A DNA stretch of 64,000 bases from positions 1,940,501 to 2,004,500 of the forward strand of contig NZ_AP028156.1 of assembly GCF_033096465.1 (NCBI RefSeq). The letters run 5' to 3'. Below the pieces are notes generated by a model that saw only the letters and a list, made by a program, of their open reading frames with translations, did no database searches and was not told where the DNA came from. The translations under genes were made by a program, and so were the position numbers. This DNA is from Blautia luti. GTDB lineage: Bacteria > Bacillota > Clostridia > Lachnospirales > Lachnospiraceae. This document shows, piece after piece, positions 26,963 to 63,046 of the stretch; positions within the stretch are counted from its first letter, which is position 1, and the number at the start of each line of letters is the position of its first letter.

Positions 26963-26976
26963 TTTTCTAATCCCTT

Positions 26977-29900: not shown

Positions 29901-30153
29901 TACCGTTTGCAATACCGCACACGCCTTCAATGTCTTTTTCATTAAAGGGACGTCCATCATGTTCAATAACCAGTTTTTCTTTCTTCAAATGAAATTGTAT
30001 TCTTGTAGCTCCAGCATCTTCAGCATTTTGCAGGATTTCATAAATAAAATGCGTTCTATCACTGTATTGGTTAATAATGATCCGCAGAATCTTTTCAGCC
30101 TCTGTACCGTACTTGATTCTATTCGCATCACTAATTTGTTTATATAACTCCAT
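26977..30153 (-). CDS. Sacsin-like GHKL ATPase with C-terminal HNH-like zinc domain
   Basis: 1058 residues. The N-terminus is a GHKL ATP-binding domain of the sacsin/Hsp90-like kind: N-box YEILQNAEDAGA (Asn about 43), G1 motif EHDGRPF (Asp about 66) and G2 motif GHFGIGFKSVY (about 93-103). A long middle of no known fold follows. Near residue 870-910 is a Lys/Glu-rich coiled segment, and the end holds HCQICLKQI (about 941) and CLCPNC (about 985), an HNH-type or related zinc domain. Such large GHKL proteins are frequent next to helicases in defence islands. It overlaps the SNF2 gene by 14 nt and lies 14 nt before the SF1 helicase, so the three are translated together. Confidence 0.82.
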   Translation of the reverse strand: MELYKQISDANRIKYGTEAEKILRIIINQYSDRTHFIYEILQNAEDAGATRIQFHLKKEKLVIEHDGRPFNEKDIEGVCGIANGTKEDGTRIGHFGIGFKSVYCYTEHPYIYSGEYHFVIQNQLFPKEVPGSQEIAYDETCMILPFDKGEVPSSIAYQEIRDALTKKITAESIIMLNQISDVRIKIDGYPEEIEINKAKYSLDKKAYADNVFGLNMNTTITNTRSKQTRTKDADYLFFTDANAEATAIIFRVEGKELKAIQNSKIYAFFPTAKEAHQNFYIHAPFDTTPARDNFKEGAEYGKHNIELIKAVGELIWFAFQWMKNHQYLSVSGFNTVFPVYEYEADDVLYGIYQNSIDMIREEALLPTNVPGEFKKIQEICVPLWGIIVDTFDDNDLRALRRKRNISWLAKEFSTEAYRDARAFLNQNFKLETLEWKDLVLNMDAFFLSQKQLSWMEALMSRIESYCIKRATYDSHYIDVSQIPFVRTVSQEQICARDEHGKLQVYLNNPDIAKYRIESTFIKNECIRSFYRRALEIPEYNIEQETIENILPKYESANVKFKTKDPITENIDDLKVIKDAIYTNTSILERIKDKYIVTDGKNWYRPEEMYLCSNDTRSGYALVKGIIRIKYLADTYFDGTIRSLKLDEDFFKKIGCNAGIRMMPASRDEYLRAIRKYCGAKAESDYRTNIFFKTYISKKLDWSFNYEGFPDIFTDMTKEKSLSIARFLNPNAMNFDIQGELVAADDQHFSGKNVESMMAYSMLGLQLCYEKWIYIQGDPFPHRPLEIDKEDLLPEYKTAKRLMAILPFKEVKSALTEWLDANIDDKSDLNLIKHYLADPEALAKVAKAMAKNEAQMEAKKNKVKSAKELIEQGDRKQRESGKDDMELEISPISEKGKLKREQNLDRQLADSMDNFISVARGLSFSSRPSNKEERIFLEQEYDGHCQICLKQIRKYNGEHYFEAINIIKFSKLPERLANSGKYGWNSLCLCPNCAAEYNYCSKKISSLYDQVMQMEVEPGSEETLDIGIEMPEGKARRIRYSPRHFMALKEAFKIFADEK

Positions 30154-33100: not shown

Positions 33101-33505
33101 CTGCAGTTCTCGAAGAATCAATCCTGCTTCTATCGTCTTTCCGACACCAACACTATCTGCGATTAAAAGGCGTGGTCTGTCCGCACGTATAAATTTAAGA
33201 ACTGGTCGAAACTGGTGTGGAATAAAGTCAATCTTAGCTGTATTTAAAGAATACAATGAAGATATAGATGGATTGCGAATCAAAGACGCAGTCAGACCTG
33301 CATTGAATCTCTCTGCATCCACTTTCTCCATTTCTTCATCAGATTCCTGAATATCAATCTGTGATTCATAATATGTTTGTATACCGGCTGCTGTAAATAC
33401 CTGATATCTTGTTTCCGGATATCCTTCCATAATATTCACTATTGCACCGGTAATACTCTTATCAGACTTTAATGTAATTACCTGTCCCTGTTTAAATCTA
33501 CTCAT
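30140..33505 (-). CDS. SNF2/RapA-like DEAH helicase
   Basis: 1121-residue superfamily 2 ATPase of the SNF2/RapA (HepA) type. Motif I is DSVGVGKTIEAGL (Lys about 123), motif II DEAHH (about 231-235), motif III LLTATPVQ, and motif VI QRIGRIDRNGQ (about 611-621). An N-terminal SH3-like segment of about 60 residues precedes the motor, and about 450 helical residues of unknown fold follow it. RapA-like translocases in defence islands move on double-stranded DNA and often present it to a nuclease. Here the coupled neighbours are the GHKL/HNH protein and the SF1 helicase. It is not accompanied by the DUF1998, PLD or methylase genes of DISARM. The ribosome site before ATG 33505 is weak. Confidence 0.88.
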   Translation of the reverse strand: MSRFKQGQVITLKSDKSITGAIVNIMEGYPETRYQVFTAAGIQTYYESQIDIQESDEEMEKVDAERFNAGLTASLIRNPSISSLYSLNTAKIDFIPHQFRPVLKFIRADRPRLLIADSVGVGKTIEAGLILRELQARRNLDSVLIICPRPLVSERKWEEEMKRFGEEFTALDGDLFRHCINELDMEGEWPEKYKKAIIPYSLFDESNVFGNKKHKGLMEVDPPEFDLVIVDEAHHIRNTATYGYRAVSRFCDAAEAVVLLTATPVQLQYDDLFVLLNLLRPDLIIDRKTFQDMAEPNQFINMASTYVRGFKEGWKENAYEQIINACNTSWGKKVFQGNPTMEGIIRVLNQNEISVEERVQLISDIENMHTFSNLISRTRRRDIGEFTIRKPYTVTVEFTPEQRELHDKVLEVVHEIFSTIHCTDNTKFMMTTIRRQTASCLFGLAPMLRSILYRHLYEITDNDDESIDLSALNHDKSLFSIQEQIEEILEIADALPDEDPKFDALMEIVKKKQTETKNKLMIFSSFRHTLHYLYNKLTEQGLRVGLIHGDVIDEERRELRKRFNPNQTPCEDKTALDILLFSEVGCEGLDYQFCDCMVNYDLPWNPMKVEQRIGRIDRNGQTSESVAIYNMVTPGTVDADIYERCLMRIGVFHSSIGDCEDILGEITGEIRKLVDNFQLSDEDRREKMQQMTDNKVRFLKEQEELEEKQRDLFGIHVPQSAFDSELKNATNYWLSSENIQNLVQCYLKQRLEADKEYILGTKELKKLRLSQDARMSLLDDFKRAKLPRNEINRSWRRWLESGEQLMEITFESKCWKENPSATLLSITHPLVKFAADYLQSKGKVVTSLRVESDQFAAGVYPFAIYQWKLSGEREDIQMIPVSSNTNLNRILFELLKQSCGVNYLADIKEESWKAVDATHHSFWTEALKEHKEKTEEMINYKEASLRTSHTARMKSLEDALKNNSGKKNYIQMMTGKIRIAQEDYDLHMHQLEDAKSKADILFELLAYGVLDIEPDSQKAVNQSMLDTMKYIRDQYGLELLESPRRLLGLISDLAPEQFNERRKLKLLFDIGVVDQLKSNPENIERVIQMTETELGFTEEEMKKYIQYLTVFMEKDSRNGVI

Positions 33506-34817: not shown

Positions 34818-35651
34818 TTACTCTCCTGTAAAATACACCATCACTACCGTGATATCATCTCCACACCCGAGTTCACTGGTCTCTGTCAGCCAGTTCTTCA
34901 GATTTGCCTGTACTGTCTCAGCTCCATGCTCTTGAATCATCTGCAGATAATCCTTACATGTCTTCTGATACTCTTCATCAGAAGTATAACTATTTGCAAA
35001 TCCATCTGTAGAAAGAATGTACATATATGGCTCTTTGCTTTCCATTTCCCGTCTCCGCACCGATGCCACAGCTTTTCTCCAGGCATCCGGTTTTGAAAGG
35101 GAATGTGTCTCTGTTCCAAGGAATTTCTCTGGTTCCACCAGCGGTGCCACTTCATCTTTTGTCACAACACTGATATCACCATCTCCGATCTGGAAAGAAA
35201 AAACAAAACTGTCAGTCACCAGCATTCCAAGCAGTGTCGTTCCATACAATGAAAATACAGACGACCACTTGATATTTCCATCTTCATCGGTCATTCCATC
35301 TACTTTATTTTTATAAAAAGACTGTTTCACTCTTGCCTGCCACTCTTCACATACATCCTGGGCAAACCGCATATCCCCTTCCCGGTTAAGGAAAGTAATC
35401 AGATTAGAAAGTCCTGCTTCATCTTCTCCATAAACTTTCAGGTAGTTCTTCATGACTTCATAGAAAGAATTAACAGCAATCATGGAACCTCTATCACTTC
35501 TTGGACATTTAGAACTTCCATGTCCGTCTGCAACTGCGATGATTGCAATTTTATCTGAAATCTCTACAATTCGTTTATTATCCTGGCAAGGCATTTGGTT
35601 TCTTACGTGAGTCGCACCCTTGACGATTTCGTCACATATATAGCGTTTCAT
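34818..35651 (-). CDS. PP2C-family Ser/Thr protein phosphatase (TerY-P triad)
   Basis: 277-residue PPM/PP2C phosphatase. Metal-binding motifs are complete: VADGHGS (Asp about 42), IGDGDISV, STDGFANS and the C-terminal CGDDITVVMV. It should reverse phosphorylation by the kinase encoded at 37111-38409. The start at 35651 follows AGAGGAGGAG; an in-frame start at 35696 lies within the vWA gene and lacks a site. With the vWA and kinase genes it forms the TerY-phosphorylation triad described in tellurium-resistance-like and defence loci. Confidence 0.92.
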   Translation of the reverse strand: MKRYICDEIVKGATHVRNQMPCQDNKRIVEISDKIAIIAVADGHGSSKCPRSDRGSMIAVNSFYEVMKNYLKVYGEDEAGLSNLITFLNREGDMRFAQDVCEEWQARVKQSFYKNKVDGMTDEDGNIKWSSVFSLYGTTLLGMLVTDSFVFSFQIGDGDISVVTKDEVAPLVEPEKFLGTETHSLSKPDAWRKAVASVRRREMESKEPYMYILSTDGFANSYTSDEEYQKTCKDYLQMIQEHGAETVQANLKNWLTETSELGCGDDITVVMVYFTGE

Positions 35652-35667
35652 CCGACTCCTCCTCTTC

Positions 35668-36468
35668 TTACCAGACAGCTCCTTCATCAAAATCATCTGG
35701 ATTTGGAATATTACTCATATCAAGTACCAGTGGTGCCCCATTGTTTGCCGGTGCAAACGGATCATCTGCCGGTACAGATGCTACGGAAGCTCCTGATGCA
35801 GCTGCAGGCGTGGATACGGATGCTGCAGGTGTAGATGCTGCAACCGAATTCATTGGCTTACTTGATGGTGCGGATACCATAGAAGCTGTGGTAGATGCCC
35901 ATTTAATCATTTTTGCAAGAGCTGTTGCATTGTTTGCCTGCAATACAAGCTCTTTATTTCCAGTAAATTCAATAAGAACCTCATCGTCTGCATCTTGTCC
36001 AATAGAAATTGCAATCTTCACTGCTTTTCTAAACCAAGGAAGCTTTTTCAACTTCTCCATACTCTTTTTATAATCATCTGTCGGCTGTCCGTCTGAAAGA
36101 AGCACAATAACCGGTGGTAATGCTCTCTCCGGCATTGGTGGAATACTTAACTGTGCTGCCAGAAGATCAAATGCTTTTCCAAGTTCTGTCAGTCCATTGG
36201 CATCCATATCTTCCCATCCATAATCCTCTACTGGCACTGGACTGGATGTAATCCAGCTTGCTCCTGATGAGAACTGTAATGCACGGATCAGAAGCTGTGC
36301 ATTTGGATTATTGTCCGCTGCAGAGCGCATTTCCGGTATGCACTCCTGAATCGTATTGTTTACGATTCCAATTTTTTCTCCATACATAGATCCAGAACAA
36401 TCTACTACCCAAAAGAAATGAATCGGTCTTGTTGCTAATTCTCCACCCGGTCTCTGTAATACTTCCAT
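35668..36468 (-). CDS. TerY-like von Willebrand factor A protein (TerY-P triad)
   Basis: 266-residue cytoplasmic vWA protein. The MIDAS metal site reads VVDCSGSM (about 21-28), with a threonine in ANGLTELG and the third loop in VLLSDGQPTDD. The last 75 residues are low-complexity Ala/Ser/Pro/Val (SSKPMNSVAASTPAASVS and similar), a flexible linker, ending in an acidic tail PNPDDFDEGAVW that may bind a partner or be phosphorylated. It is followed after 16 nt by the PP2C gene. In TerY-P systems the vWA protein is thought to be a scaffold or substrate controlled by the kinase and phosphatase. Confidence 0.9.
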   Translation of the reverse strand: MEVLQRPGGELATRPIHFFWVVDCSGSMYGEKIGIVNNTIQECIPEMRSAADNNPNAQLLIRALQFSSGASWITSSPVPVEDYGWEDMDANGLTELGKAFDLLAAQLSIPPMPERALPPVIVLLSDGQPTDDYKKSMEKLKKLPWFRKAVKIAISIGQDADDEVLIEFTGNKELVLQANNATALAKMIKWASTTASMVSAPSSKPMNSVAASTPAASVSTPAAASGASVASVPADDPFAPANNGAPLVLDMSNIPNPDDFDEGAVW

Positions 36469-36481
36469 GACTTTTCCTCCT

Positions 36482-37096
36482 TCATACTTCAGCTATACAC
36501 ATATAGTTTTCATTTCGATCTACGACAGTGAATTGGATCATATCTCCTACATGAACTCCAAAAGCTGCATCTGGTTCAGTTAAAAGCATGCCAACTAGTT
36601 GTCCATTCTTTATCCCTTCACATCGAACCCAGCATCCTTCAGGTCTACGGCCGCCATGAAGCAACATTACCAGAATATCATCTGGAAACTCACTATTTCT
36701 GCAACCATCCAAAACTGAAAGTCCTCTAGTGATTTCTACTCCATCACTGTATTTATATCCAATTTTTATTTTAGCTATTTTATCTAAATGTCTAAACTCA
36801 AATCCTTTACAGTCTTTTACAATAAACAAATCGCAATCTTTTACTGAAGCAGAACGATATTTTGCTGAAATGGTATTATCTCCGCTATATGATGTAAGTC
36901 CTTCATCTGTGAGTTTAGCACATGTGAGTATTTCATAAGTTAATCCCGCTTGATGATCCACATATCCATACGCCAATACCCCGTTTCCATTTTCATGATC
37001 TGGTAATTGCTGCGTTACTTTTTGATAGTTTTTACCCGCCGAAATAAAACAAATTCTATGGTAAACATCTCTATAAGTTATATCTTTTGCTTTCAT
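36482..37096 (-). CDS. Unknown protein in the TerY-P cluster, DUF2314-like C-terminus
   Basis: 204-residue protein, cytoplasmic, not recognised as a whole. The last 60 residues (EGCWVRCEGIKNGQLVGMLL, TEPDAAFGVHVGDMIQF) resemble the DUF2314 pattern of a WV start, a GxLxNxP-like turn and a GD.I.F end. The N-terminal 130 residues look beta-rich (GLTYEILTCAKLTDEG). The ribosome site is GGGGGAAACGGGG. It lies between the kinase (14 nt) and vWA (13 nt) genes, inside the triad, which points to a role in the same complex or as a substrate. Confidence 0.6.
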   Translation of the reverse strand: MKAKDITYRDVYHRICFISAGKNYQKVTQQLPDHENGNGVLAYGYVDHQAGLTYEILTCAKLTDEGLTSYSGDNTISAKYRSASVKDCDLFIVKDCKGFEFRHLDKIAKIKIGYKYSDGVEITRGLSVLDGCRNSEFPDDILVMLLHGGRRPEGCWVRCEGIKNGQLVGMLLTEPDAAFGVHVGDMIQFTVVDRNENYMCIAEV

Positions 37097-37110
37097 ACCC
37101 CGTTTCCCCC

Positions 37111-38409
37111 TTAGTTAAACTCCCCTATTGACTCTGGAAACAAAATCTTAACACCTTTTGCAATTCCAGCTGTTCTTCCTGGTGCAACCGGAATTTGTGT
37201 ACCATCTGCTTTCTGATAAGTCCAGTTCACTTTATCTTCATTCCGAATTCCCCAAAGTGCCGGGTTCTTCGGATTCTGAACCACTGAACCTACTACGGTA
37301 TCCATATCAAAATCATCGTAAACATGATGATGTAACAGCTTTGTATTCTGATGTAACAGCACTCGGTTCTTTCCAATGATAATCTTATTTGGTACTTGTA
37401 CTGTCTTTCCGCAGTTCCAACAAGTATGTGCCACACCCTTTGCTTCCAGATTCTCATCATAGAAAAGCTGAGCACCGCAGGAACACTGTAACATTCCGCT
37501 CATCATGTTAGAGAATAACGTCATCCATTCCGGCTCCGTAATACGTTTGCTCGGCTCATTCAGTCCGACTGTAAATGCTTTAGTAAACATCTGACGCAAT
37601 TTTTCCGGATACAGTGGCCAGTAAATCGTTGCATTATCATGAATTCCTTTTACCGGTCTGTTCGTCTTATTATTCGGATCAAAGATAAATACTGGATCTG
37701 TACCATACAGCTTCACTCTGGCAGCCATATCCATACATCGAATACTTGCTTCCAGTTTTCCTTCCAGTGGATGATTTACCATAAAAAGATAGAACAGTAG
37801 CACGGAAAGTGAATATCGGTCTGTATCTTTGGATGGTCGTTTTTCTCCTCTTACAATCTCTGGTGCCATAAATCCCGGTGTACCAAGAACTCCACCTGGC
37901 TTACTGTTATCAAAGGATACGTTGTCATTGTCACAAATCAATACATCTCCATTATCCGGATTAAAAAATAAGTTTCCGAAAGAAATATCCTGATACTTGG
38001 CTCCCATGGCGTGCAGTTTCTGGTAGCCTCTGGTCAGATTAAAAGCAGTTCTGCACAGTGTATAAAAAGATGGATTCACACGTTTCTTCATCAGATCCAC
38101 GATACTTTTATAATTTTTTGGTCGAAGAGGCATGATATAACCATACAGATCACTTTTCGCCGGCACAATCAGCTCCATAGGCCAGAGAAAACTTTCATCC
38201 GGTGAACCTTTGACAATGATTGTTTCCAGAATCTTTTTCTGACGCTCGGTCGCACTGCCTTTAAAGTACCATTTCAGAGCATAATGACTGCTGCCACATT
38301 TCACATCATAGACTTCTCCCTGTCCACCGGCTCCCAGGAGACTGACTACCTCATATTTATTTCCACTTTCTGAAGTGAGTATTGTTCCATTTTTTAATTG
38401 TCCTTCCAT
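37111..38409 (-). CDS. Ser/Thr protein kinase with zinc ribbon and FHA-like tail (TerY-P triad)
   Basis: 432-residue eukaryotic-type kinase. The glycine loop is GAGGQGEVY (26-34), the ATP lysine is in YALKWY (46), the catalytic loop reads YQDISFGNLFF (Asp 141, Asn 146), the DFG position is CDNDN (about 159-163) and APE is at 182-184. A zinc ribbon follows (Cys about 309, 311, 330, 333). The last 90 residues (LWGIRNEDKVNW, then VAPGRTAGIAKGVKILF) look like an FHA domain that would read phospho-threonine. Its start overlaps the stop of the PH-like gene (TAATG). HRD is changed to YQD and DFG to DND, but the essential Asp and Asn residues remain, so activity is expected. Confidence 0.9.
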   Translation of the reverse strand: MEGQLKNGTILTSESGNKYEVVSLLGAGGQGEVYDVKCGSSHYALKWYFKGSATERQKKILETIIVKGSPDESFLWPMELIVPAKSDLYGYIMPLRPKNYKSIVDLMKKRVNPSFYTLCRTAFNLTRGYQKLHAMGAKYQDISFGNLFFNPDNGDVLICDNDNVSFDNSKPGGVLGTPGFMAPEIVRGEKRPSKDTDRYSLSVLLFYLFMVNHPLEGKLEASIRCMDMAARVKLYGTDPVFIFDPNNKTNRPVKGIHDNATIYWPLYPEKLRQMFTKAFTVGLNEPSKRITEPEWMTLFSNMMSGMLQCSCGAQLFYDENLEAKGVAHTCWNCGKTVQVPNKIIIGKNRVLLHQNTKLLHHHVYDDFDMDTVVGSVVQNPKNPALWGIRNEDKVNWTYQKADGTQIPVAPGRTAGIAKGVKILFPESIGEFN

Positions 38410-38918
38410 TATGGTATCTGCCTCCTTTGTTTGATCAACTGCAATACCTGATTTACTACACTGCCATCCGCCACGATCATGCAATAGGATTTATTTCCAA
38501 ACTGCATCTCGCAGGCATTGCTGTATGGAGTAATTGCGGTCAGATAACGATAAGTCTTGTCAAATCCCCATTCCGTTGCCTGAAACACAATCCTTTGATT
38601 CGTTATGTATAGAATTCCCCGGTGCTGCACAAGTTCTGTATGCTCGACCGTTCTTCCTCTTCCGGAACTCCATCTGGTTCCATCAAATAATCCTGGGGCA
38701 CTTCCTCCCACATGACGGAACTCTTTCACTGTTTTCTGCTCCATATTGATTGCCTTATCAATAAAGTGAATCTTTTCTCCACGTTTCAGGAACAGTTTGT
38801 CTGTGTTTAAAATTGGAAGTCTGCCTGCAATGATCTCCTGTCTCGCTGCATCCGGCAAAATCGTTGTCACCGTAGGAATCTGGTTCCGATTTCCAAATAG
38901 TGCATCAAAAAGTCCCAT
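38409..38918 (-). CDS. Small PH/GRAM-like domain protein
   Basis: 169-residue protein. The C-terminal half (HRGILYITNQRIVFQATEWG, then TYRYLTAITPYSNACEM) matches the bacterial PH-like/GRAM pattern of 'G.LyiTN.R.vF'. The N-terminus MGLFDALFG is a short amphipathic helix that might associate with membrane. AGAGGTGAGAGG precedes the start, and the stop overlaps the kinase start by one base, so it is translated with the kinase. It is probably an adaptor that places the kinase or senses a ligand (inference). Confidence 0.65.
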   Translation of the reverse strand: MGLFDALFGNRNQIPTVTTILPDAARQEIIAGRLPILNTDKLFLKRGEKIHFIDKAINMEQKTVKEFRHVGGSAPGLFDGTRWSSGRGRTVEHTELVQHRGILYITNQRIVFQATEWGFDKTYRYLTAITPYSNACEMQFGNKSYCMIVADGSVVNQVLQLIKQRRQIP

Positions 38919-42225: not shown

Positions 42226-43233
42226 TTAATTGTCACTTTCCCTTGCACTGCTGTTCAAATACCCATCTTCTTTTAATCTTTCGACTATAGATATCAACTT
42301 TAAAATATAATTTTTCCTCCAGACATCATATTCTAAAATATGTTCTAATTTATACTTGTCATAACAAAAATCAAGATAATTTAGCAACAATCTCCGCACA
42401 TAATTTCTTAATATTTTTAATTCTTGCTGAGTAATATTTTCATTCTTTCCCTCGTGAGTTTCGTCAGATCTGTCTTTATATATTCTAATTGCATCATCAT
42501 ACACATTTTGCGCATCATCATCTGTTGCAATAGATGCAGCTAAACGATTTGCAAATTTTTGTTTTTTTGCTTTTTGTCTATCATCTGAATTATAACCTAT
42601 TAGAATCATTTCCGATAATGTAACCAAATTTTTATATGCATCATCAATTTTCGATGTACTATATCCCCTTTCAAATCTGCCAAAAATGACTTTCATTTTT
42701 TCATAAAAATCTTCCGGAAAATCCACAAGTTTTCTGAAAAGTTCAGCATTATCATTATTCCAATTATAAAAATCGTCATACACACTAATCGGTTCATCTA
42801 TACTCAGCTTCTTGCGCAAATTAACATTCATTATTCCTTGTTTGCTATGGAAAAAGAAAAATTTTTCTGCTACTTCGATATTACCATCTTGAACAACATG
42901 TAAAGCTTGGATAACACGAATCATTTCTAAATTTATTTTATGCACTATATTTTCAAACACTTCTTCTATTTTTGATGTAAGTAATCCAACAGATATTGAC
43001 TCCGTTATTCTTTTTTCTATAAATATAAATTCCGGATCTCCATCACTCGATAAATCACTTGAAATATATTTTTCATCTACTTGACCTCTGGCATTTAATA
43101 TTTCATCCTTTATAAGTGTATCTGAAAGTTTCATCTTCTTTAATTCAAAACTATATGGCATCTGTATTTGTAGTAAAGATTCCTGAGCTCCCAATACTAT
43201 TGCATATACTTCTAAATCATATGTTCTTTCCAC
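42226..43233 (-). CDS. Apea/HEPN-like protein inserted between pglZ and brxL
   Basis: 335-residue protein, not part of the canonical BREX set. The C-terminal 130 residues resemble Apea-like HEPN domains: a helical array with IRIYKDRSDETHEG (about 249-262), where R.....H matches the HEPN RNase pattern, followed by ILRNYVRRLLLNYLDF. The N-terminal 200 residues are of unknown fold and may sense a trigger. Start is GTG 43233 with AGGAGG just upstream; it lies 11 nt after pglZ. Its base composition is much more AT-rich than either neighbour (14 G+C in 60 sampled bases at 42541 against 26 in 60 at 42061), suggesting separate acquisition. It may be an abortive-infection RNase backing up BREX (inference). 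Confidence 0.65.
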   Translation of the reverse strand: MERTYDLEVYAIVLGAQESLLQIQMPYSFELKKMKLSDTLIKDEILNARGQVDEKYISSDLSSDGDPEFIFIEKRITESISVGLLTSKIEEVFENIVHKINLEMIRVIQALHVVQDGNIEVAEKFFFFHSKQGIMNVNLRKKLSIDEPISVYDDFYNWNNDNAELFRKLVDFPEDFYEKMKVIFGRFERGYSTSKIDDAYKNLVTLSEMILIGYNSDDRQKAKKQKFANRLAASIATDDDAQNVYDDAIRIYKDRSDETHEGKNENITQQELKILRNYVRRLLLNYLDFCYDKYKLEHILEYDVWRKNYILKLISIVERLKEDGYLNSSARESDN

Positions 43234-46002: not shown

Positions 46003-47043
46003 TTATTTTGGTGGAAATGCTAAAACTTGTTTCTGCAATATTCTGTTATCGTTCAAATAATAGTGTTCAATTTTATTATCCATTAACCACTCTCTTAAAG
46101 TAAAGAAAAATTTTCCATCCGTATTGTATATCGGAACATCTATATGAGCTTGTCCAATATCTGATTTACATTTTTTTACCAAAGTATCTGTATAAATTTC
46201 AAAATGGTACTTAACCTGACAGGATTCTTTTGGATAAATCGCTATCTGAAGGTGTTTGTCACTATTCGCACCCAATGAATGCTGAAGATTGATTTCAAAT
46301 TTTTGCGGTTCTTTCTCCATATTTTCTAGAAGAATTGCACCACTTTCAACATCTGCTGTACCACCTTGGCAAAAACTATAATTGAATTTATCTCCCGAAA
46401 TTAAAAGTGTACCCAAATACAACTCTGAAATCAGTTCTTCTCCCTCACTATATACAGTTCCCCAAAAAACTAACCAGTTATCTTCTATGTATTTTTTTAT
46501 AAAACAATCTTTATTTGGTTTCCACGATCCAAGTTTAAAAATTTCACCCGACTTAAGTTCGGATATATTATAATTTTCACAGAATTTCTCACCCAATAAT
46601 TCCTTAAGGTCATTTTCCGTGCAACCTTTAGAAAAAATTTTCACATTCAAATCATAACAATCGATATTACCATTATTAATTATATAAAAATGCATCAATC
46701 CATTTGCATAATGACAAATAATGTCTACTCTTTTATAACCTCTTGAAGATATTTTATCTATAACCACCAATGCCTTATTTACACCTATATTATGTGAGGA
46801 TATATTTCGATAAATACAATGTGCAACCGTTCCACAAAAAAATTCTTTATATTCTTTATTTTCTTCTAACACATAAGTTCCATCTTCTAACATTTGTTCA
46901 TCATACTTAAATGAAGAAAAAACTTTACTTTTTCTAATCGGGCAAATTACTCGCACTAAATATTTTGCAAAGAACATGATTGCTCCCGCAGCGACTGCAA
47001 TAAATATACCTTGCACTATTGAGTTACTTATAATAATTTTCAC
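46003..47043 (-). CDS. Membrane-anchored protein of unknown function
   Basis: 346 residues. One N-terminal membrane helix (about 9-30, VQGIFIAVAAGAIMFFAKYL) is followed by a basic stretch (RKSKVF) and a large beta-rich soluble domain with no motif I recognise. By the positive-inside rule the soluble part is cytoplasmic. The start is GTG 47043 with AAAGGT 6 nt upstream. It lies 54 nt after the PtuB-like gene and is AT-rich like the primase-RT genes (18 G+C in 60 sampled bases at 46561). It could be a membrane effector or an immunity-type partner of the preceding genes (inference). Confidence 0.55.
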   Translation of the reverse strand: MKIIISNSIVQGIFIAVAAGAIMFFAKYLVRVICPIRKSKVFSSFKYDEQMLEDGTYVLEENKEYKEFFCGTVAHCIYRNISSHNIGVNKALVVIDKISSRGYKRVDIICHYANGLMHFYIINNGNIDCYDLNVKIFSKGCTENDLKELLGEKFCENYNISELKSGEIFKLGSWKPNKDCFIKKYIEDNWLVFWGTVYSEGEELISELYLGTLLISGDKFNYSFCQGGTADVESGAILLENMEKEPQKFEINLQHSLGANSDKHLQIAIYPKESCQVKYHFEIYTDTLVKKCKSDIGQAHIDVPIYNTDGKFFFTLREWLMDNKIEHYYLNDNRILQKQVLAFPPK

Positions 47044-47097: not shown

Positions 47098-47775
47098 TTA
47101 TGATATCTTCAATTTGCACTCAAGCCAGGAAATGATAATTCCGCAATACGGAGTTAAATTTCTTTCCTGCACAAGACTCGCATAAGTGCGTTCCAGTTCA
47201 TGTATAAATGCATCTTGTGATTTGCCTTTGCATTTTCTCATGATTCTATTCTTCTCTGCCATCAAAACATTTTTCCGTGTCTGTGGTAACGAAAGTGCCT
47301 GGCAATTCAAATTCAATGTTTCTGTCACGTCTTTATTGATATCCGCATCATCCGAATAAATGCTTCCATCCGCTTTATACTTAATTTTTCTGACAGACAT
47401 TTCATCAAACGGATTCACAGTAAGCTCTATATTGCCCCTGTGTGCATCACAGGTTTTATCTTCTGGTTTCACACCTCGCACCAAACTGTTTCCATAGCAC
47501 ACGCCAAGCATCCATTTAAAATCCAGCGTTGCCTTTTTATCATGTTCCTGCTCATCCTGTGGATGTCTCGGCCTGCAATGTTCAATTCTCACAACACTTG
47601 GAGCCTCAATCTTCTTCATACAATATGCACACAGGCATCTCTGTTCTTCCCACATCTGTTCCCGGATGTCTTTTAACACATCTGTAGGCATATCAGACTC
47701 ATAATCCGCATCCGGATTTTCTTTACGGAATTTCAGAAGACTATTGGGTTCTTTTCCTCTTTTTATAACGATCAT
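47098..47775 (-). CDS. ptuB: HNH endonuclease-like protein, PtuB (Septu-type)
   Basis: 225-residue protein of the group commonly found as the small partner of PtuA-type ATPases (TIGR02646-like). The HNH/zinc region includes LCAYCMKKI, then VRIEHCRPRH, a middle N in VCYGNSLVRG, and CDAHRGN. It should cut DNA or tRNA/RNA substrates when released by the ATPase. It starts 3 nt after the stop of the ATPase gene, so the pair is tightly coupled. Septu pairs occur alone, and with a retron reverse transcriptase in retron Ec78; here the nearby reverse transcriptase is of a different type. Confidence 0.82.
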   Translation of the reverse strand: MIVIKRGKEPNSLLKFRKENPDADYESDMPTDVLKDIREQMWEEQRCLCAYCMKKIEAPSVVRIEHCRPRHPQDEQEHDKKATLDFKWMLGVCYGNSLVRGVKPEDKTCDAHRGNIELTVNPFDEMSVRKIKYKADGSIYSDDADINKDVTETLNLNCQALSLPQTRKNVLMAEKNRIMRKCKGKSQDAFIHELERTYASLVQERNLTPYCGIIISWLECKLKIS

Positions 47776-47778
47776 ACA

Positions 47779-49095
47779 CTATTCTCCCAATATTCTCTCC
47801 AAATCCAGAGATGTCCTTGCAGCTGCGATATCCGGATCTGTTGTTCCAACAATCGCCTCGATCTCCGTCAAAACCTTATCTGCTTCTTTGTAATTATTCT
47901 CATTCATATACGCATAGAATAAATCCATACGCTGCTTAATGTCAGCCGGACGTTCTGATACATTCATAACCTCACGTAATATGGAATTAGCATCTCTTCC
48001 ATAAGTCTGTGCCACAGGCATATAAATTTCTCCAGAATCTAAAATACGAATCTGCTCTCTTGGAACAGAATTAATAACTGCTGGAGCATGAGAACTGACA
48101 ACAAACTGAACTTCCGGGAAAATTGCATGGAGATCGCTCAGAATTGTCTGCTGCCACTGCGGATGCAAATGTAAATCTATTTCATCTATCAGTACAACGC
48201 CTGGTGTTTTTTCCAGTACTTGCTCGCCAAGTATCGGATTTAACACTGCCATGCGATAGGCAATATCACCAATCATGCTAAGTGTGTTCTTATATCCATC
48301 GCTCATTTCATCCATTGCGAATTTCTGTGCATTTCCATCTGCGGATTCAAATTCCAATACCAGTCTATGAGTATCAAGATCGAAGATAAGGCTGGCATTT
48401 CGTGCACCGCTGATTCTCTCAAAACTTCTGCAGATTGCTTTTTCTACTGTTCTCAGAAGCAGTGGTCTTTCCAATATACCTGTCTTCTGTTGTTCCTGAA
48501 GGCTTTTCATTGTCTGCATCTGGAACCAGTTCAGCATCAACTTTTCATTTGACTCTGCTGCCATACAATCCACGTAGCCAACCTGACGTTTAAACTCCGT
48601 TAAAGATTTCAGATTTCTCTTTTCTTTCTTCTGTGCATATAAACGTCCCGTTCCATAATAAGAGATCAAAGGAAGTACGAGAGATTTATCTCCTGTCATG
48701 ATCTGGTTCTGTGCTTTCTTCGCGAGTCCTGTCAATTCACCCGCATCTTTGATGGTTGTCTTGCCACTTTCAGAGTTCAAAGAACGAATCCACTTCACAT
48801 TTTTCTGTTCCAAACAATCACCAGTACTCTCAATAATTACCGGAAACTGGTGCTGCGGATCAATCGTTCCGTTTAAATCATGAAACTCATATCTGGCATC
48901 ATCCTTTAAGATACTTCTACTGACGCCACCATCTATCCCTAATAGAAAGGTACTGACCGAGACAGCTACTGCATCCAATATCGCAGTCTTACCTGCTCCA
49001 TTCTTACCAACTACCAGTGTTATATGGTCATCAAAATCAACCTCCGATTCTTGGAAGCATCTGTAATTTGAAATCTTAATTTTTTTTAACTTCAT
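47779..49095 (-). CDS. ptuA: SMC/ABC-like ATPase, PtuA (Septu-type)
   Basis: 438-residue ATPase of the AAA_15/OLD-like group without a TOPRIM domain. Walker A is GKNGAGKT (30-37), the ABC signature region reads MDEMSDGYKNTLSMIGD, Walker B VVLIDEIDLHLHP (about 298-310) and the His switch SSHAPAVINS. The central insertion is typical for PtuA-like proteins. AAGGTGAT precedes ATG 49095. The gene is 68 nt after the 908-residue gene. Base composition is like core BREX genes (26 G+C in 60 sampled bases at 48481), unlike the AT-rich primase-RT module upstream, so the two may have arrived separately. Confidence 0.85.
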   Translation of the reverse strand: MKLKKIKISNYRCFQESEVDFDDHITLVVGKNGAGKTAILDAVAVSVSTFLLGIDGGVSRSILKDDARYEFHDLNGTIDPQHQFPVIIESTGDCLEQKNVKWIRSLNSESGKTTIKDAGELTGLAKKAQNQIMTGDKSLVLPLISYYGTGRLYAQKKEKRNLKSLTEFKRQVGYVDCMAAESNEKLMLNWFQMQTMKSLQEQQKTGILERPLLLRTVEKAICRSFERISGARNASLIFDLDTHRLVLEFESADGNAQKFAMDEMSDGYKNTLSMIGDIAYRMAVLNPILGEQVLEKTPGVVLIDEIDLHLHPQWQQTILSDLHAIFPEVQFVVSSHAPAVINSVPREQIRILDSGEIYMPVAQTYGRDANSILREVMNVSERPADIKQRMDLFYAYMNENNYKEADKVLTEIEAIVGTTDPDIAAARTSLDLERILGE

Positions 49096-49163: not shown

Positions 49164-51890
49164 TTAACTATATACTTCTTTCTTTTTAACAAACATGCAT
49201 ATCGATTTTTTGGGATTTATCAGCATCTCCTCTGGAAAAACATTTCCTTTCGTCATATTGAATTCACGGATTACCGTATAAACATCACTATTCGCTCTTT
49301 TCCACTTCTCGCCAAGCCTTTGTAGTTCATCATTAATCTGTGATTCCTTCTTTATAATTTCTCTTCCATAAGATACGGTTAAATTTTTTATATCCTTCTC
49401 AACTAAAAACTGTTTTATTTCTTCCAAACCTTCTTTTGTTCCATAATAAGCATGTATTTCCAATGAACAACTATTCTTCTCAACAATATCGTCAATGTCT
49501 ACTAATATTTTATTACCAGTTTTATCCGTCATATAATATTTTTGACTTCTTTCCTTTGCATTCCTAACATATTGTTGTTCGTTTTCAGAATCATGAGATA
49601 TATCCATATTCAAATATGCTTTAATCATTCTTTTGGTGGAACCTCCTTTTTCAAAATTATCCGAAAGAAACACAATTTTTTTTATACATTTACCATTATG
49701 GTAATATTTATCATTTTTTAATTCTATCGAATCATCAAACAAATCATTTTTTTCACGAATACTTTTAGATTTCAAATACTTTTCATACATACTGCTAAGT
49801 ACACTATCGCTACGTCTTCCATCTTTTGGCACGTATAATGTATTTTCATCTTTTCTCATAAATTTTTCATCTTTACTTATTTCACTAAATTCCAATTGTT
49901 GATGATGTTCAAAAATTTTAAGATAACTCTCTACTGTATTTTCATTTACATTTGACCATATCATATTATGTATCAACCGATAGTATACTTGAGAATCAAA
50001 ATCTGAGAAAAACTTCTTCCCAACTTCATCTAAAGCCTCTTGCTGCAATTTCATTTTATTATAAATCTCTTTATATCGTATCAAAGTTACTTTAGAAGTA
50101 ATTTCCCAGTCTAGTCCATTTTTTTCTAAAATTTCTACTAACTTTGAAAAATTTTTCAAAAACTTATTTTCGTAAATTACAGCTTTTTGCTTTTTAGCAT
50201 CATACAAAAAATAGTATTCCAATTCTCCAACTTCTAACCCTTCTAGAAAAATATTATCAGGATCTTTGATGTTTTCCTTAGTTATAATTAATTGACGTAT
50301 TCCTGTTTCCTTTTGTAAAATTTTCCCCCAATAATCAAATACTACATCCCCAACTAAGATAGTTTCTTCTTCGTCTTCTTGAACTCTTCCAATCAAAACA
50401 TACGCATTTTCTGTGTTTTCAACCCCTAATATCTTATATATCCAATTACATTTGTCTCTCAAAGGGTAAAAGTCCAAAGCCTCTATATCATGATTTTCAA
50501 TGCTTTTATCTGATGAGCGTTTTGAAGTATTGGTTCTACGAATACAATATGCATTTTGTTTATACCATTCTTCTACAATAAACATCACCGCATCTATTTG
50601 ACTTCTACAACTCTTAACCCAGTTTTTCAAAAGTTGCTCTTGGTACCATTCATCTTCTCCAAATGAATTCAACTTTAAATTATCTACTCCAATATTTTCT
50701 CTTTCTAAAAGCAGTAATGCTAGACCAAAAGAAACTCTATTCAAAACATTATTTCGACTCTTTTTCAACGAAGAATTCCTATAAGATGATAATGCATCAA
50801 TAAATTCCTCTTTAATATATGCTTTCCCATGAATCGAATTAAGTTTTCCTTTTACAAATACCTTATCTTTATAACAAAACGGATTAATTGGACAGATATC
50901 ACCATTTACTTTTTTTATAAGCGAATTTTCTAATAAAATATTATATATTCCTTTATCATAAACCAATTTTAAGAATTCTTGCCGCCCTTGTTCATCTTTT
51001 AATATATCTGAATAATCAACTAAGGTATCTCCCTCATCTAATTTATATTCAATAAAATATCCCATAAGATTTTCATGATAATCTTTTTCTATTTCAATTT
51101 TTAAATCTTCTTTTTTGAATAATATTGATGATGTAAAATAGTTACTATTTTTATTTCTTATGAGAACACTATTTTTCCCCCTATCATAAAATATCATAAC
51201 ACCATTTTTCTGATGATTTAGTAGATCTTGTGTGTCAATTATATCTCCTGTTGATTGAAGGTAATTTATAAACTTCAAATTACACTCTTCAGTTAGTGTT
51301 CTAAAGATTTCCGGCTTATCAGAAATTGTTTTAAATAATCGCACAGCAAGCTGCAAAATATGAATCTGATACTCTCCTAATGGATTATTCACATCGACAA
51401 ATTCCGGATTCGTAATAACTTTTTGTAACATATCGTGTATTGGAAACACATATTTCCCATCTTCTTGGATTTCAAAAATAAAATAGATTTTTTCCAGTTC
51501 TTCTAAAAGTACGTATATCTTATCTTGCAAATATGTATCATCTATATGTTGTAATGTTCCCAATGCACCATGTGTTTTTAATTCATGAAGAAACCATAAA
51601 ATAGTTATGCTACTACAACTTTTTTCCTCTTCTGTAGCTTCTGTACTAATTTGCTCAATATTTTTTAATGTATTTAGTATAGGTTCTTTCAACTCTTCTA
51701 CTGTATTTGTTGTGTCATACAACTTTTGGCAATATTGTAACAACTGAAAAAAAACATCCGCTACTAATTTTCTATTTGCTGATAAATCTTGCAGACTACA
51801 ATTTTCTATTTCTGCAACAGTTCTTAATACAATTTCTTTTTCGTATTTTCCTACCTGCAACGCTTGCAGACAAATTTCAAGATTTTTCAT
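49164..51890 (-). CDS. Large unknown protein coupled to the primase-reverse transcriptase
   Basis: 908 residues, not recognised. The N-terminal 200 residues are helical. A later block VFLSDNFEKGGSTKRMI (about 739-755) has the shape of a phosphoribosyltransferase PRPP loop, a hydrophobic strand, acidic residues and GGST, and it follows LSSMYEKYLKS; this likeness is weak. A basic segment RRTNTSKRSSDKS lies near 455. It has no membrane helix, P-loop or nuclease motif I can identify. Its ATG lies inside the last codons of the primase-RT gene (14-nt overlap) with CGGAGG upstream, so the two proteins are made together. Composition is very AT-rich (15 G+C in 60 sampled bases at 50161). Function may be effector or RT partner (inference). 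Confidence 0.75.
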   Translation of the reverse strand: MKNLEICLQALQVGKYEKEIVLRTVAEIENCSLQDLSANRKLVADVFFQLLQYCQKLYDTTNTVEELKEPILNTLKNIEQISTEATEEEKSCSSITILWFLHELKTHGALGTLQHIDDTYLQDKIYVLLEELEKIYFIFEIQEDGKYVFPIHDMLQKVITNPEFVDVNNPLGEYQIHILQLAVRLFKTISDKPEIFRTLTEECNLKFINYLQSTGDIIDTQDLLNHQKNGVMIFYDRGKNSVLIRNKNSNYFTSSILFKKEDLKIEIEKDYHENLMGYFIEYKLDEGDTLVDYSDILKDEQGRQEFLKLVYDKGIYNILLENSLIKKVNGDICPINPFCYKDKVFVKGKLNSIHGKAYIKEEFIDALSSYRNSSLKKSRNNVLNRVSFGLALLLLERENIGVDNLKLNSFGEDEWYQEQLLKNWVKSCRSQIDAVMFIVEEWYKQNAYCIRRTNTSKRSSDKSIENHDIEALDFYPLRDKCNWIYKILGVENTENAYVLIGRVQEDEEETILVGDVVFDYWGKILQKETGIRQLIITKENIKDPDNIFLEGLEVGELEYYFLYDAKKQKAVIYENKFLKNFSKLVEILEKNGLDWEITSKVTLIRYKEIYNKMKLQQEALDEVGKKFFSDFDSQVYYRLIHNMIWSNVNENTVESYLKIFEHHQQLEFSEISKDEKFMRKDENTLYVPKDGRRSDSVLSSMYEKYLKSKSIREKNDLFDDSIELKNDKYYHNGKCIKKIVFLSDNFEKGGSTKRMIKAYLNMDISHDSENEQQYVRNAKERSQKYYMTDKTGNKILVDIDDIVEKNSCSLEIHAYYGTKEGLEEIKQFLVEKDIKNLTVSYGREIIKKESQINDELQRLGEKWKRANSDVYTVIREFNMTKGNVFPEEMLINPKKSICMFVKKKEVYS

Positions 51891-54405
51891 TTGCTACCTC
51901 CGCATCAACCAAAAGAAGAGCTTTTACAATAATGCAATCATTTTTCTTTAATTCAATATCTAAAATTTTTTTTAGATATTCTTCCTTTATTCGTTCAAAT
52001 ATTGGGGGTGAAATTGTCCTATCCTGTACTGCATAATACAATGTATGAATGAAATTGCTAAAATTCAATGATTTAAGAGGTATCAGCTTCAGTTCATGAT
52101 TATCCAAAATTATTTTTATATATTTTTCATTTTGAAATAAAAATTCATAAAATTTTCTGTAATTACTACCTCTGCCTTCACATGCACTCAAAATTTCTGT
52201 ACGGCAATTTTGCAAACACCATATTTGTGCTTCTGAAATTGTATACTTACCAAAAATGTAGCCCAATGAACCTACATTAAATGGGTTTTCTGTCAAATAT
52301 TCTTTTAATTTACTTTTCTTTTCTTCTTCTAGCAAATATCCGGTATAATCATTTTCGATTAAATCATAATTAAAACTATCTGTATGCAAAATTTGAACCT
52401 TTTCATTACCAGATAAATCACATATTTTTCCATAATATTTACTTTTATTTAAATTAACTGGTAGACCAACTAAAGGAAAAAAACTCATTAATTCATCGAA
52501 CAGCATTCTACTATCAAAATCTGGACGGCAAAAAAATACCATATCATCCACATAACGATACACATAAATTTTTTCCTGATCAAACTTCTTTAACACGGAA
52601 TTTAATAATTTGTCCAAAAACATTTCCGCTATTATCCTTGCATAAGCTGGTCCTTGAGGTACTCCAATACGATCACCATTTTGAATTTTTTTCATTAATT
52701 TATCATTATATTCGGTTAAAAAAACAAAAATATTTCTTGCCTTTTTGTCCAAAACATCTTCAAAACTTCTTAATACCGCCAAAAAATCTATATGATCATA
52801 AAAACCTTTTAAATCTATATAAAATACCTCATAATTATCCATAAATGGTACATCCATAAATACATGTATATAGTCTAAATATCTTCTCCAGGAGGAATAC
52901 CAATGATAGAAAATATATTTATTCGATGTATATGATATATGATAACTAAATGATTTCCAGCTTTCATTTATCAAGTCACATAATCGAAGGGCTAAATTAG
53001 TTGTAATGATACGCTCTTTTGCCGACAATGCAACTAATTTTCTTGTTTTTTCCTCACTTTCAATTCGGCTAAAAATTTTAAAATTTTTCGGTGTAAACTG
53101 TATTCTTTTCCCTTCTTCTATATCTTTAATTAAATCTTCATAAAAACGAAAATCATAATTTTTTAAGTTACAGAGTTGATTCCATATATAAACATCTGCG
53201 ACTTCATCATTTTCTTTTAAATAATTCTTCTCTTTTTTTGCAGTAATACTAATGTCATAAATCGTTTTTTTCTCATTTGTATTTTCAATTTGTTGTAATA
53301 TATTCGGTTCAACTCCACATCTCCGTAATAAATAATGCAATCCCGTCTCTTCTGGATCGATATTTTCTTCCAATGTAATCCCATAAATGCGGTAAAGATA
53401 CCCAAATGTTGCTGGGAAATATGACTTTCCTAATTTTTCGATATTACTGAATGTTTTTCTCTCATCATAATTGGGAAATCTTCTAAACACGTCCGTTACA
53501 AGTACTGCATCTGCATCACATAAATATAATGTTCCCAAAATAACCAGCCAATCTTGATGCAATGAATTTCCCTGTTGCATTCTTTGAAAAATTTCTCTAA
53601 AAACTTTGGTTTCCGATAAAATGTTAATAACTTGATCAGATGTCACATCTATATTTCCTTGCAACCAATATTTTCTATATTTTAACTTTGTTGTTTCAGC
53701 GTATGTTGTATCAATATTAAGTTTTCTAACAACTTCCGTTATCTCATTAGGCATATATGCTTTCATTATGCCTAATTGTGCATTCAAGAATACTTCCGAT
53801 TCTGTATCTTCTTTTTTTTGAAATTCGCCCTGGAAAATATAAGACCTTTCACCTGCTACATGACATGATAATGGAAATTTCACCTGTTTTCCTACTATAT
53901 TACCCCGGCTAGTATCTGTAGCCGGAAATCTATCCAGCTCCCACTCCTCATTATCTTTTATTTCTGATAAAATCTGACATTTTTTTTCTAATTCACATAC
54001 AATACGATATCCTAATTTTTTTTCAAAAACCGTTTTAAATATTATCCATACATGAATTCCTCTTCGTCCTGAAAATTCTGTTAAATATTTAATTTCTAAT
54101 TCATCCAACATATTTGTAAATGGGAGAATACAGTTTTTATATAACCCATAGACATTTGGATTTTTTTTATCTTTACAATCAAAATCAAAACAAATCCATT
54201 TTATCCGATTGGTTTTGTATCCCTGTTGATAGCACCCCATAGATCCATGTCTTAAAAGCATATTTTCAATCACAAATGGAGACATTGGAAAATATTTTGT
54301 AATATAACGACCATTCGGTTGCTGTATACCTGCTGCATAAGTATTTACCACCCACAACGAATATTCAATGTTTGCAATATCCTTAATAATCTGATTAATT
54401 ACCAT
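51877..54405 (-). CDS. Archaeo-eukaryotic primase fused to a reverse transcriptase
   Basis: 842 residues with two catalytic parts. N-terminal AEP primase: metal site WICFDFDCKD (Asp about 74, 76), FSGRRGIHVW (His about 118) and RFPATDTSRGN with QVKFPLSCH (about 150-170). C-terminal reverse transcriptase: motif A FYIDLKGFYDHI (Asp about 531), motif B GVPQGPAYAR (about 583), motif C YVDD (618-621) and motif D LPVNLNKSK. Both sites look complete. RTs with a fused primase have been described among the UG/Abi defence RTs (I believe UG10/DRT7; to be verified). It could start synthesis without an external primer. It lies 158 nt downstream of pglX and overlaps the 908-residue gene. AT-rich (17 G+C in 60 sampled bases at 52741). 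Confidence 0.88.
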   Translation of the reverse strand: MVINQIIKDIANIEYSLWVVNTYAAGIQQPNGRYITKYFPMSPFVIENMLLRHGSMGCYQQGYKTNRIKWICFDFDCKDKKNPNVYGLYKNCILPFTNMLDELEIKYLTEFSGRRGIHVWIIFKTVFEKKLGYRIVCELEKKCQILSEIKDNEEWELDRFPATDTSRGNIVGKQVKFPLSCHVAGERSYIFQGEFQKKEDTESEVFLNAQLGIMKAYMPNEITEVVRKLNIDTTYAETTKLKYRKYWLQGNIDVTSDQVINILSETKVFREIFQRMQQGNSLHQDWLVILGTLYLCDADAVLVTDVFRRFPNYDERKTFSNIEKLGKSYFPATFGYLYRIYGITLEENIDPEETGLHYLLRRCGVEPNILQQIENTNEKKTIYDISITAKKEKNYLKENDEVADVYIWNQLCNLKNYDFRFYEDLIKDIEEGKRIQFTPKNFKIFSRIESEEKTRKLVALSAKERIITTNLALRLCDLINESWKSFSYHISYTSNKYIFYHWYSSWRRYLDYIHVFMDVPFMDNYEVFYIDLKGFYDHIDFLAVLRSFEDVLDKKARNIFVFLTEYNDKLMKKIQNGDRIGVPQGPAYARIIAEMFLDKLLNSVLKKFDQEKIYVYRYVDDMVFFCRPDFDSRMLFDELMSFFPLVGLPVNLNKSKYYGKICDLSGNEKVQILHTDSFNYDLIENDYTGYLLEEEKKSKLKEYLTENPFNVGSLGYIFGKYTISEAQIWCLQNCRTEILSACEGRGSNYRKFYEFLFQNEKYIKIILDNHELKLIPLKSLNFSNFIHTLYYAVQDRTISPPIFERIKEEYLKKILDIELKKNDCIIVKALLLVDAEVANEKS

Positions 54406-61865: not shown

Positions 61866-62453
61866 TTACACAAGCCGGAATGCCCGGTAATAATTTCTGG
61901 AATCCATCGTTCCAAATAATTTCAGATCCTGTCCGCTGTATTCTCCAGGATAAAACATCACAACCGGCACACTGTCCAGTACCTGATGTAAATTGTTCAA
62001 AATATTATGGCTCGCAATGATTGGATGGCATTTACCTACTCCTGTCAAAAAGATTACGCTGTCTGTCAAATCTTCCTGTAGAATCTTAGAGATAATCAGG
62101 TTCAGTTCGTTCGTTTCATCCAGTCCTAATGTCTCTACCAGACTGTCTGCCATATCAAAAAAGCCATTGTCTTTTTCCAGATCAAAGAAGGCTTCCAGAT
62201 ATCCTTCTTCCTCCAATACCTGAATCATCGTGTGAAACAGGTCAAATTCTATGATTTTAAAATCTTTATTGCCATTATTGATTCTGTCTTTTAAGTATGC
62301 GATATGATTGCGTACTTCCAGCTCTGCTCTCGGATCGTAATCAAACACATAATATCCGACTTCATTTCCTAGTCCTTTATTTTCACGGAAAGACTTTTCA
62401 GAAATCTTATCCTCAATCCGGTTCAGTCTTTCTTCCAAACTTAATCTTGCCAT
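61866..62453 (-). CDS. brxB: BREX protein BrxB (DUF1788)
   Basis: 195-residue DUF1788 protein. Diagnostic parts are YYVFDYDPRAELEVRNHI, IIEFDLFHTMIQVLEE, VIFLTGVGKCHPIIASHNIL and the closing PVVMFYPGEYSGQDLKLFG. It begins 2 nt after brxA, with GAAGGGAG inside the brxA end as ribosome site. It is expected to assemble with the other core BREX proteins. Confidence 0.95.
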   Translation of the reverse strand: MARLSLEERLNRIEDKISEKSFRENKGLGNEVGYYVFDYDPRAELEVRNHIAYLKDRINNGNKDFKIIEFDLFHTMIQVLEEEGYLEAFFDLEKDNGFFDMADSLVETLGLDETNELNLIISKILQEDLTDSVIFLTGVGKCHPIIASHNILNNLHQVLDSVPVVMFYPGEYSGQDLKLFGTMDSRNYYRAFRLV

Positions 62454-62455
62454 CC

Positions 62456-63046
62456 TTAGACTCCCTTCACTGCTTTCAAGTATTCGCCAAGCCCATTTGC
62501 AGTCAGTAATTCTTCTGTCCGGTAATCAATATGAATTGGCTTGATTGTTCTTGGTTTTGCACTGCTTTCCAGTAATCCTGCCTCAAACATCATTCTGGTA
62601 AAGCACTGTTTTAACTTCCGTACTGCAGTATCCGTCCAGCCAGCAACCACATCACTCTGCATTGCCTTATCTGCAAAAAAGACATTCAGATCCCGGTCTG
62701 TGATCTCCTTTTCACCTAATCGAATCTTCTCGTCATAGACTTCATGTAAAAACTCAAAAAATAATCTGCTGTCCATCAGAATTGTAATCAGATTCAAAAT
62801 CTTTGCGGTTTCTACATCACATGTGATAAACACCTGTAATACTGCTTCCGGTAAGGCAGATACTCTTCGGTATGTTCCATTCAGCACCTCATAGGCACGA
62901 TATTCTGCTTTCACCTGATAGATATTTTCCTCCCAGGCAATCTTGCGGATGTCTGCCTTGCTAAGTCCTTCCAGAATATAAGCTGCTGTTTTTCTGGACT
63001 CTTGCAACCAAAATAATTTTGATGTAAGTCCTGCACTGTATTCCAT
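62456..63046 (-). CDS. brxA: BREX protein BrxA (DUF1819)
   Basis: 196-residue DUF1819 protein, a small helical DNA-binding protein of the BREX core. Conserved features are LWLQE-like FWLQESRKTA near the start, LYR-like TYRRVSALPEAVL, FEFLHEVYDEK and the helix-rich end with WTDTAVRKLKQC. Its start overlaps the stop of the XRE gene (TAATG), so they are translationally coupled. It is the first core gene of the operon. Confidence 0.93.
   Translation of the reverse strand: MEYSAGLTSKLFWLQESRKTAAYILEGLSKADIRKIAWEENIYQVKAEYRAYEVLNGTYRRVSALPEAVLQVFITCDVETAKILNLITILMDSRLFFEFLHEVYDEKIRLGEKEITDRDLNVFFADKAMQSDVVAGWTDTAVRKLKQCFTRMMFEAGLLESSAKPRTIKPIHIDYRTEELLTANGLGEYLKAVKGV

Follow-up and report, generated by a model that had tools for sequence, protein, structure and literature searches.

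Do a protein that joins a primase to a reverse transcriptase (RT) and the 908-residue protein encoded directly behind it in Blautia luti belong together, and if so, do they represent an undescribed mechanism, as the initial annotation of this DNA had proposed? The stretch concerned, hereafter the window, comprises 64,000 nt of assembly GCF_033096465.1 (contig NZ_AP028156.1, positions 1,940,501-2,004,500, forward strand), and its positions are given relative to its own first base. Our analysis suggests that the two genes probably form a two-gene DRT7 (UG10) anti-phage module, in which a DNA-making RT-primase is joined by a partner of the phosphoribosyltransferase (PRTase) type acting as effector or sensor. 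The features on which this account is built are the following:

51877..54405, minus strand: UG10 (DRT7) primase-RT, 842 residues, ATG start; PADLOC model RT_UG10_small, 1195.8 bits over residues 4-832 of 842
53812..54300, minus strand: archaeo-eukaryotic primase (AEP; PrimPol) domain, residues 36-198; Pfam AEP-TOTE (PF22548), 48.2 bits, cut-off 27
54178..54186, minus strand: primase DxD (D74, D76), invariant in 5 of 5 UG10 proteins
52432..52824, minus strand: RT core, residues 528-658; Pfam RVT_1, 45.8 bits, cut-off 29.6
52543..52554, minus strand: RT catalytic YVDD (residues 618-621; D620, D621), invariant in 5 of 5 UG10 proteins
49164..51890, minus strand: partner protein, 908 residues, ATG start; adjoins the RT at every intact UG10_small locus found (3 of 3: window, L036, L037)
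51877..51890, minus strand: RT end and partner start share 14 bases, preceded by GGAGG at 51897-51901; same overlap in L036 and L037, with GCGGAGGT before the ATG in all three
51582..51890, minus strand: partner N-terminal helical region, residues 1-103, MIF4G/armadillo-like in the predicted model
49248..49916, minus strand: predicted partner C-terminal PRTase-like domain, residues 659-881, well modelled only at about 721-840
49635..49661, minus strand: segment resembling a phosphoribosyl pyrophosphate (PRPP) loop, residues 744-752, D-N-F-E-x-G-[GS]-[SA]-T, conserved in 3 of 3 partners
L038:9001-9195 and 9239-10234: RT remnant and nuclease region of Eisenbergiella tayi

A full-length reverse transcriptase of the UG10 (DRT7) class

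The defence models were those of PADLOC-DB 2.0 of 2023, and for the 842-residue protein the runner-up to RT_UG10_small was UG10_large with 392 bits, the others reaching at most 52.6 bits among the 25 of 36 families shown. Relatives were sought by a contig scan with two narrow conserved patterns, which returned 96 stretches, five relatives and four loci: L036 and L037 in Lachnospiraceae metagenome-assembled genomes, L038 in E. tayi and L039 in a Bacillota metagenome-assembled genome; further loci may exist beyond this two-pattern scan. When five UG10 proteins (window, L036, L037, L039 and the Peribacillus protein of L034) were aligned, primase residues D74, D76, R115, G116, H118 and D158 were invariant, as were D531, GVPQGP and RYVDD of the RT. 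Judged from the alignment, neither site is decayed, and the model match makes the protein a full-length UG10 (DRT7) RT, which adds one more member to an established class. The initial annotation had guessed this class and had read complete primase and RT sites in a single protein, and both points held; decay of the motifs, which it had raised as an objection, was looked for and the two sites were found intact.

The accessible portions of two studies equate the UG10 class with DRT7 (PMC13174585, PMC13314766), and in such portions of PMC13174585 and PMC13213688 DRT7 is presented as one fusion protein. Its product is described, in the part of PMC13213688 at hand, as protein-primed, protein-templated poly(A)/poly(T)-rich DNA with a function in phage defence. 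The window RT resembles DRT7 in matching over its full length, in carrying primase and RT on one chain with the primase before the RT, and in its intact catalytic residues. However, the published form, as far as these excerpts present it, is a single gene, whereas the window, L036 and L037 (all three of the intact small loci) have an overlapping, conserved second gene. This mismatch concerns the architecture of the system and not the class of the RT.

The partner gene recurs with the reverse transcriptase

The two open reading frames (ORFs) lie where they had initially been placed, and the RT stop does overlap the partner start, the GGAGG standing 6 bases upstream of the partner ATG. For L036 the overlap was counted from the ATG that aligns with that of the window, 15 bases past the first start of the listed ORF. 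The RTs of L036 and L037 are 69% and 65% identical to that of the window and the partners 52% and 50% by BLASTP (50-53% over comparisons); over all pairs of the three loci the values are 65-71% for the RT and 51-63% for the partner, which is thus the faster-evolving protein. Ratios of nonsynonymous to synonymous substitution (dN/dS), obtained with dS close to saturation, are about 0.11-0.16 for the RT and about 0.12-0.23 for the partner and make both genes look to be under purifying selection.

The DNA similarity between window and L036, window and L037, and L036 and L037 sets in at the RT start or slightly within it and ends no later than the partner end, and no ORF of at least 100 residues in the L036 or L037 flanks (1.1 to 9 kb examined per side) resembles a window ORF at E 1e-4. 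As these comparisons read, the pair is a real unit occurring in unrelated surroundings, and its recurrence is not due to chance; conservation of the partner, which the initial annotation had left to be checked, thus extends to every intact UG10_small locus found.

In E. tayi (L038) we found a UG10 RT remnant of 63 in-frame codons (13-75). The sequence begins to track L036 some 170 bases upstream of the RT, departs from it at about codon 75 of the RT and resumes just before a YhcG-type (YhcG/DUF1016) nuclease gene; the same gene follows the L036 pair, with a protein 93.6% identical. Since L038 aligns with L036 on both sides while about 5.1 kb between them, the remaining RT and the entire partner, is missing, a single deletion seems to have removed almost the entire pair from E. 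tayi. L039 has a single 1864-residue protein instead of two genes.

Searches of genome samples (family, order, class and phylum, which overlap one another) returned few further cases. With the partner as query at E 1e-3, 2 of 392 order genomes matched, namely the window and a piece of L003 (117 residues, 28%) that we take for a chance match; no plasmid record and no viral contig matched, and no partner homologue without an RT appeared in the order-genome, plasmid and viral-contig searches. Among 397 family genomes the RT had one match, that of the window; one plasmid record (Peribacillus) matched as well, with none in phages and none in viral contigs with queries A1 or A3. The UG10_small model matched 50 of 398 phylum genomes at E 1e-10, the window alone exceeding 78 bits, and the UG10_large model 1 of 391 class genomes, again the window.

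A predicted phosphoribosyltransferase fold in the partner

The partner matched no PADLOC or NCBIfam model up to E 0.1, nor any PADLOC model when that scan was repeated up to E 10. Its Pfam matches were all below cut-off (GATase_7 at E 0.11 and, with the C-terminal part alone, Cauli_DNA-bind at E 0.43), and the weak matches of its relatives, MSV199 at E 0.0069 for L037 and PDC-M15A at E 0.0039 for L036, were below or without a cut-off. In the predicted model a large share of the protein is helical, and a PRTase fold is predicted for the C-terminal part. The weak PRTase-like loop that had been noticed initially is therefore strengthened by the predicted fold, whereas the accompanying statement that there was no recognisable domain otherwise gives way to the modelled helical N-terminus and PRTase fold.

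At the sequence level the partner gave no match to PRTase-CE (PF24390) above the cut-off of 27 bits, with the whole protein or the C-terminal part, and PRTase_III-A gave none up to E 10 for the partners of the window, L036 and L037. With hhalign against PRTase-CE sequences the partner reached E 0.064 at best and the L039 tail E 0.011, with probabilities below 4%; against A5 the partner reached E 0.22. The best unrestricted profile alignment of the partner with PRTase-CE ends at the PRPP-loop-like segment. In this profile test 5 of 400 shuffles scored as well as the partner, 2 of 400 as well as its C-terminal part and none of 400 as well as L039, the eight control proteins (single sequences) being equalled by 7 to 134 of 200. 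Pairwise shuffles against six PRTase-type sequences (18 pairs) gave 0, 2 and 3 of 300 at best, and most of the others were far from significant. Because the sequence tests of homology were mixed or weak in outcome, it is chiefly the predicted fold that supports the PRTase assignment. The partner resembles PRTase-CE in its predicted PRTase fold and, possibly, in the register of the loop, and differs from it in the lack of a hidden Markov model match and in its loop residues.

The fused form UG10_large

The 1864-residue protein of L039 matches RT_UG10_large over 5-1856. Two sequence results make the tail of UG10_large seem PRTase-CE-like: the PRTase part of L042 (PF24390, 97.5 bits) matches UG10_large positions 1501-1686 at E 4.3e-8, and L039 outscores all 400 shuffles against the PRTase-CE profile. 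Two others weigh against such a reading, as the other five PRTase-CE proteins (L041, L043-L046) lack a UG10_large match and L039 itself lacks a PF24390 match. From the domain order (primase-RT, helical part, PRTase) we infer that the window pair is a split form of the UG10_large plan. L039 and the window pair have the primase-RT half in common, and the L039 tail looks like PRTase-CE; unlike the window pair, L039 is one polypeptide, its RT half is 25% identical to that of the window, and its tail shows at best a weak sequence similarity to the partner.

A direct homology between the partner and the UG10_large tail was not established at the sequence level by hhalign, hmmsearch or the shuffle tests, for which the C-terminal region had been picked after inspection by eye. 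The hhalign comparison of A2 with the L039 tail gave E 0.63, and hmmsearch between the partner and the UG10_large tail gave negative scores only. In Smith-Waterman alignments of the window, L036 and L037 partners with the tail, 63, 50 and 138 of 500 shuffles did as well for the last 320 residues and 46, 0 and 82 of 200 for the full length. In the glocal test, the C-terminal part was equalled by 0 and 1 of 300 shuffles at gap costs 11/1 and by 54 and 52 of 300 at 8/0.5, and the whole length by 33, 75, 44 and 102 of 300; a global test with free ends was degenerate. When the complete genomes that hold the window, L036, L037 and L039 were scanned with the UG10_large model up to E 10, the partner regions had no match; the L037 genome gave one weak match (E 0.08, positions 1394-1476), on a contig other than that of its RT.

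Even so, the fused form bears on the question of novelty. Since UG10_large already seems to join a UG10 RT to a PRTase-like tail in one polypeptide, to call the window pair an undescribed mechanism is too strong. The pairing of RT and partner was not named in the literature surveyed on UG10/DRT7, on links of RTs with PRTases or PrimPol, and on PRTase-CE, a partial survey of excerpts with the central DRT7 studies outside it; we claim a variant of DRT7, not priority.

We also observed on a Peribacillus muralis plasmid (L034:1-2736) an RT of the UG10_large type that lacks annotation and is cut off by the start of the record, with 912 residues to the edge.

Resemblance to type III-A retrons and CRISPR-associated PrimPol

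Type III retrons typically have a PRTase as their effector, and PRTases beside retron RTs are called effectors, according to the portion of PMC12548924 available; the corresponding portion of PMC13158370 lists the PRTase effectors of type III retrons among those yet to be characterised. The PF24390 search had positives among the order genomes (4 of 116) and among the phylum genomes (1 of 289), and query A5 had no match in viral contigs. The four order genomes hold five PRTase-CE loci, three of which (L041, L043, L045) adjoin a type III-A retron RT. Retron III-A (RT, PRTase and winged helix) and the window pair are alike in having a PRTase-type protein beside an RT in one operon; they differ in the class of the RT, in the length of the partner, which is about three times greater in the window, and in that no conserved upstream RNA element was seen in the window. 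In the search for a retron non-coding RNA, no Rfam family of any kind reached gathering score in 40000-64000, and upstream of the RT gene there is no DNA similarity among the window, L036 and L037. A retron III-A identity was rejected, RT_III-A scoring 27.4 bits vs 1195.8 for UG10_small and the partners lacking a PRTase_III-A match. Because the window RT is not a retron RT, the resemblance is, by this comparison, a likeness of plan and not membership.

CRISPR-associated PrimPol and TOTE-type AEP primases resemble the window protein in their primase domain, as the PF22548 match and an NF040561 score of 63.5 bits indicate. A CRISPR-associated PrimPol identity was rejected, since the NF040561 cut-off is 200, and none of the nine scanned neighbour proteins had a Cas-named best match.

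Two other arrangements were noted among the PRTase-CE loci. What is on our reading an HD-phosphohydrolase-like protein lies beside (L042:2-2295) or is fused to (L044:640-2868) the PRTase-CE protein, possibly as an unnamed defence system; its Pfam matches were only weak HD_assoc_2, and in PADLOC only PRTase_III-A, plus UG10_large for L042. At L046:1357-2343 a PRTase-CE protein stands between DNA methyltransferase-like and P-loop ATPase-like genes, these neighbours being judged by eye.

Genomic surroundings of the pair

The window holds a BREX type 1 operon, with BrxC, PglX, PglZ and BrxL found by PADLOC, Pfam and NCBIfam scans, and with places for BrxA and BrxB at 61866-63046 that we read from gene order. 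Between PglX and PglZ lie the primase-RT/partner pair, a PtuA/PtuB pair and a 346-residue protein of no assigned family. The GC content of the primase-RT/partner pair is 0.28-0.29 vs 0.36-0.42 for the BREX genes; elsewhere it is 0.34 vs 0.49 upstream (L036) and 0.32 vs 0.36 downstream (L037). The BREX proteins of the window have no homologue in the L036 and L037 DNA examined, and it therefore seems that the pair does not need BREX and that this operon is only its current address.

Other genes of the region were recorded. The PtuA/PtuB (Septu-like) pair at 47098-49095 is directly downstream of the partner, inside the BREX operon, and two further ORFs of the operon, of 335 residues (42226-43233) and 346 residues (46003-47043), have similarly low GC content (0.29-0.30) and no family match above cut-off. 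Genes for a PP2C phosphatase, a VWA protein and a protein kinase cluster at 34818-38484 with one unassigned gene between them, an arrangement that we take to resemble the TerY-P triad; this cluster adjoins SNF2 helicase, sacsin-type ATPase and SF1-type helicase genes at 22178-33505. Since a MobA/VirD2-type relaxase is encoded at 19201-20580, the island may be on a mobilizable element.

Possible mode of action and alternatives

In the explanation that we favour, infection would trigger or free DNA synthesis by the primase-RT, and the partner would attach to the RT or its DNA via its helical part. The PRTase site might then act on, or sense, a phosphoribosyl or nucleotide ligand, and the phage would be stopped, probably along with the cell. 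The partner would be the separate-gene counterpart of the UG10_large tail, working like a type III retron PRTase effector, and the pair would move as a unit that is currently inside a BREX type 1 operon. The specific proposal that the DNA made by the primase-RT switches on the partner, which then modifies or drains the nucleotide or PRPP pool, is put forward tentatively.

As to the role of the PRTase domain, we regard that of an effector as an even prospect and prefer it to that of a sensor, which appears rather doubtful. A sensor would bind PRPP or a nucleotide and turn on the RT-primase when a phage disturbs the nucleotide pools, and in this sub-reading of the favoured explanation the DNA itself would serve as toxin or decoy. 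All three partners keep the PRPP-like loop, but in altered form (DN for DD, G[GS] for TG), and it therefore suits binding more than catalysis; also, the DNA product of DRT3 is itself termed the effector in the accessible part of PMC13174585. The use of the term effector for PRTases beside retron RTs (PMC12548924, in the portion cited above) speaks for the other role.

Rather improbable to us is a structural or template scaffold that shapes or templates the DNA of the RT-primase, with the PRTase fold as a relic: the partner is large, much of it is helical in the model and it evolves faster than the RT, but UG10_large seems to retain a PRTase-like tail and the loop is conserved. Defence islands gather unrelated genes, and with BREX and PtuA/PtuB present here the partner might be an independent defence gene set beside the RT by chance; this is very unlikely, given that gene order and overlap are the same in three of three loci with otherwise unrelated flanks, that E. 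tayi seems to have lost both genes jointly and that no solitary partner homologue was found in the searches described. The position between pglX and pglZ could suggest an accessory part of the BREX system, and to this we give the least credence, as the L036 and L037 DNA examined lacks homologues of the window BREX proteins and the pair stands apart from the BREX genes in GC content.

Significance for DRT7 systems

Defence-associated reverse transcriptases (DRTs) act by making DNA, and for many of them the step from that DNA to defence still awaits an explanation. If DRT7 has a PRTase-type domain in both fused and split form, one can ask whether the DNA regulates a nucleotide-acting protein, as in retrons, or is itself the weapon, and in the two-gene form the RT and the PRTase-like protein are separately removable. 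The partner is also a possible missing second component of UG10_small loci for annotation tools. If the partner is a DNA-activated PRTase, the PRTase would be an effector common to DRTs and type III retrons, which UG10_large carries in the same chain and UG10_small as a separate protein, and the combination could tie DNA synthesis to nucleotide-based defence.
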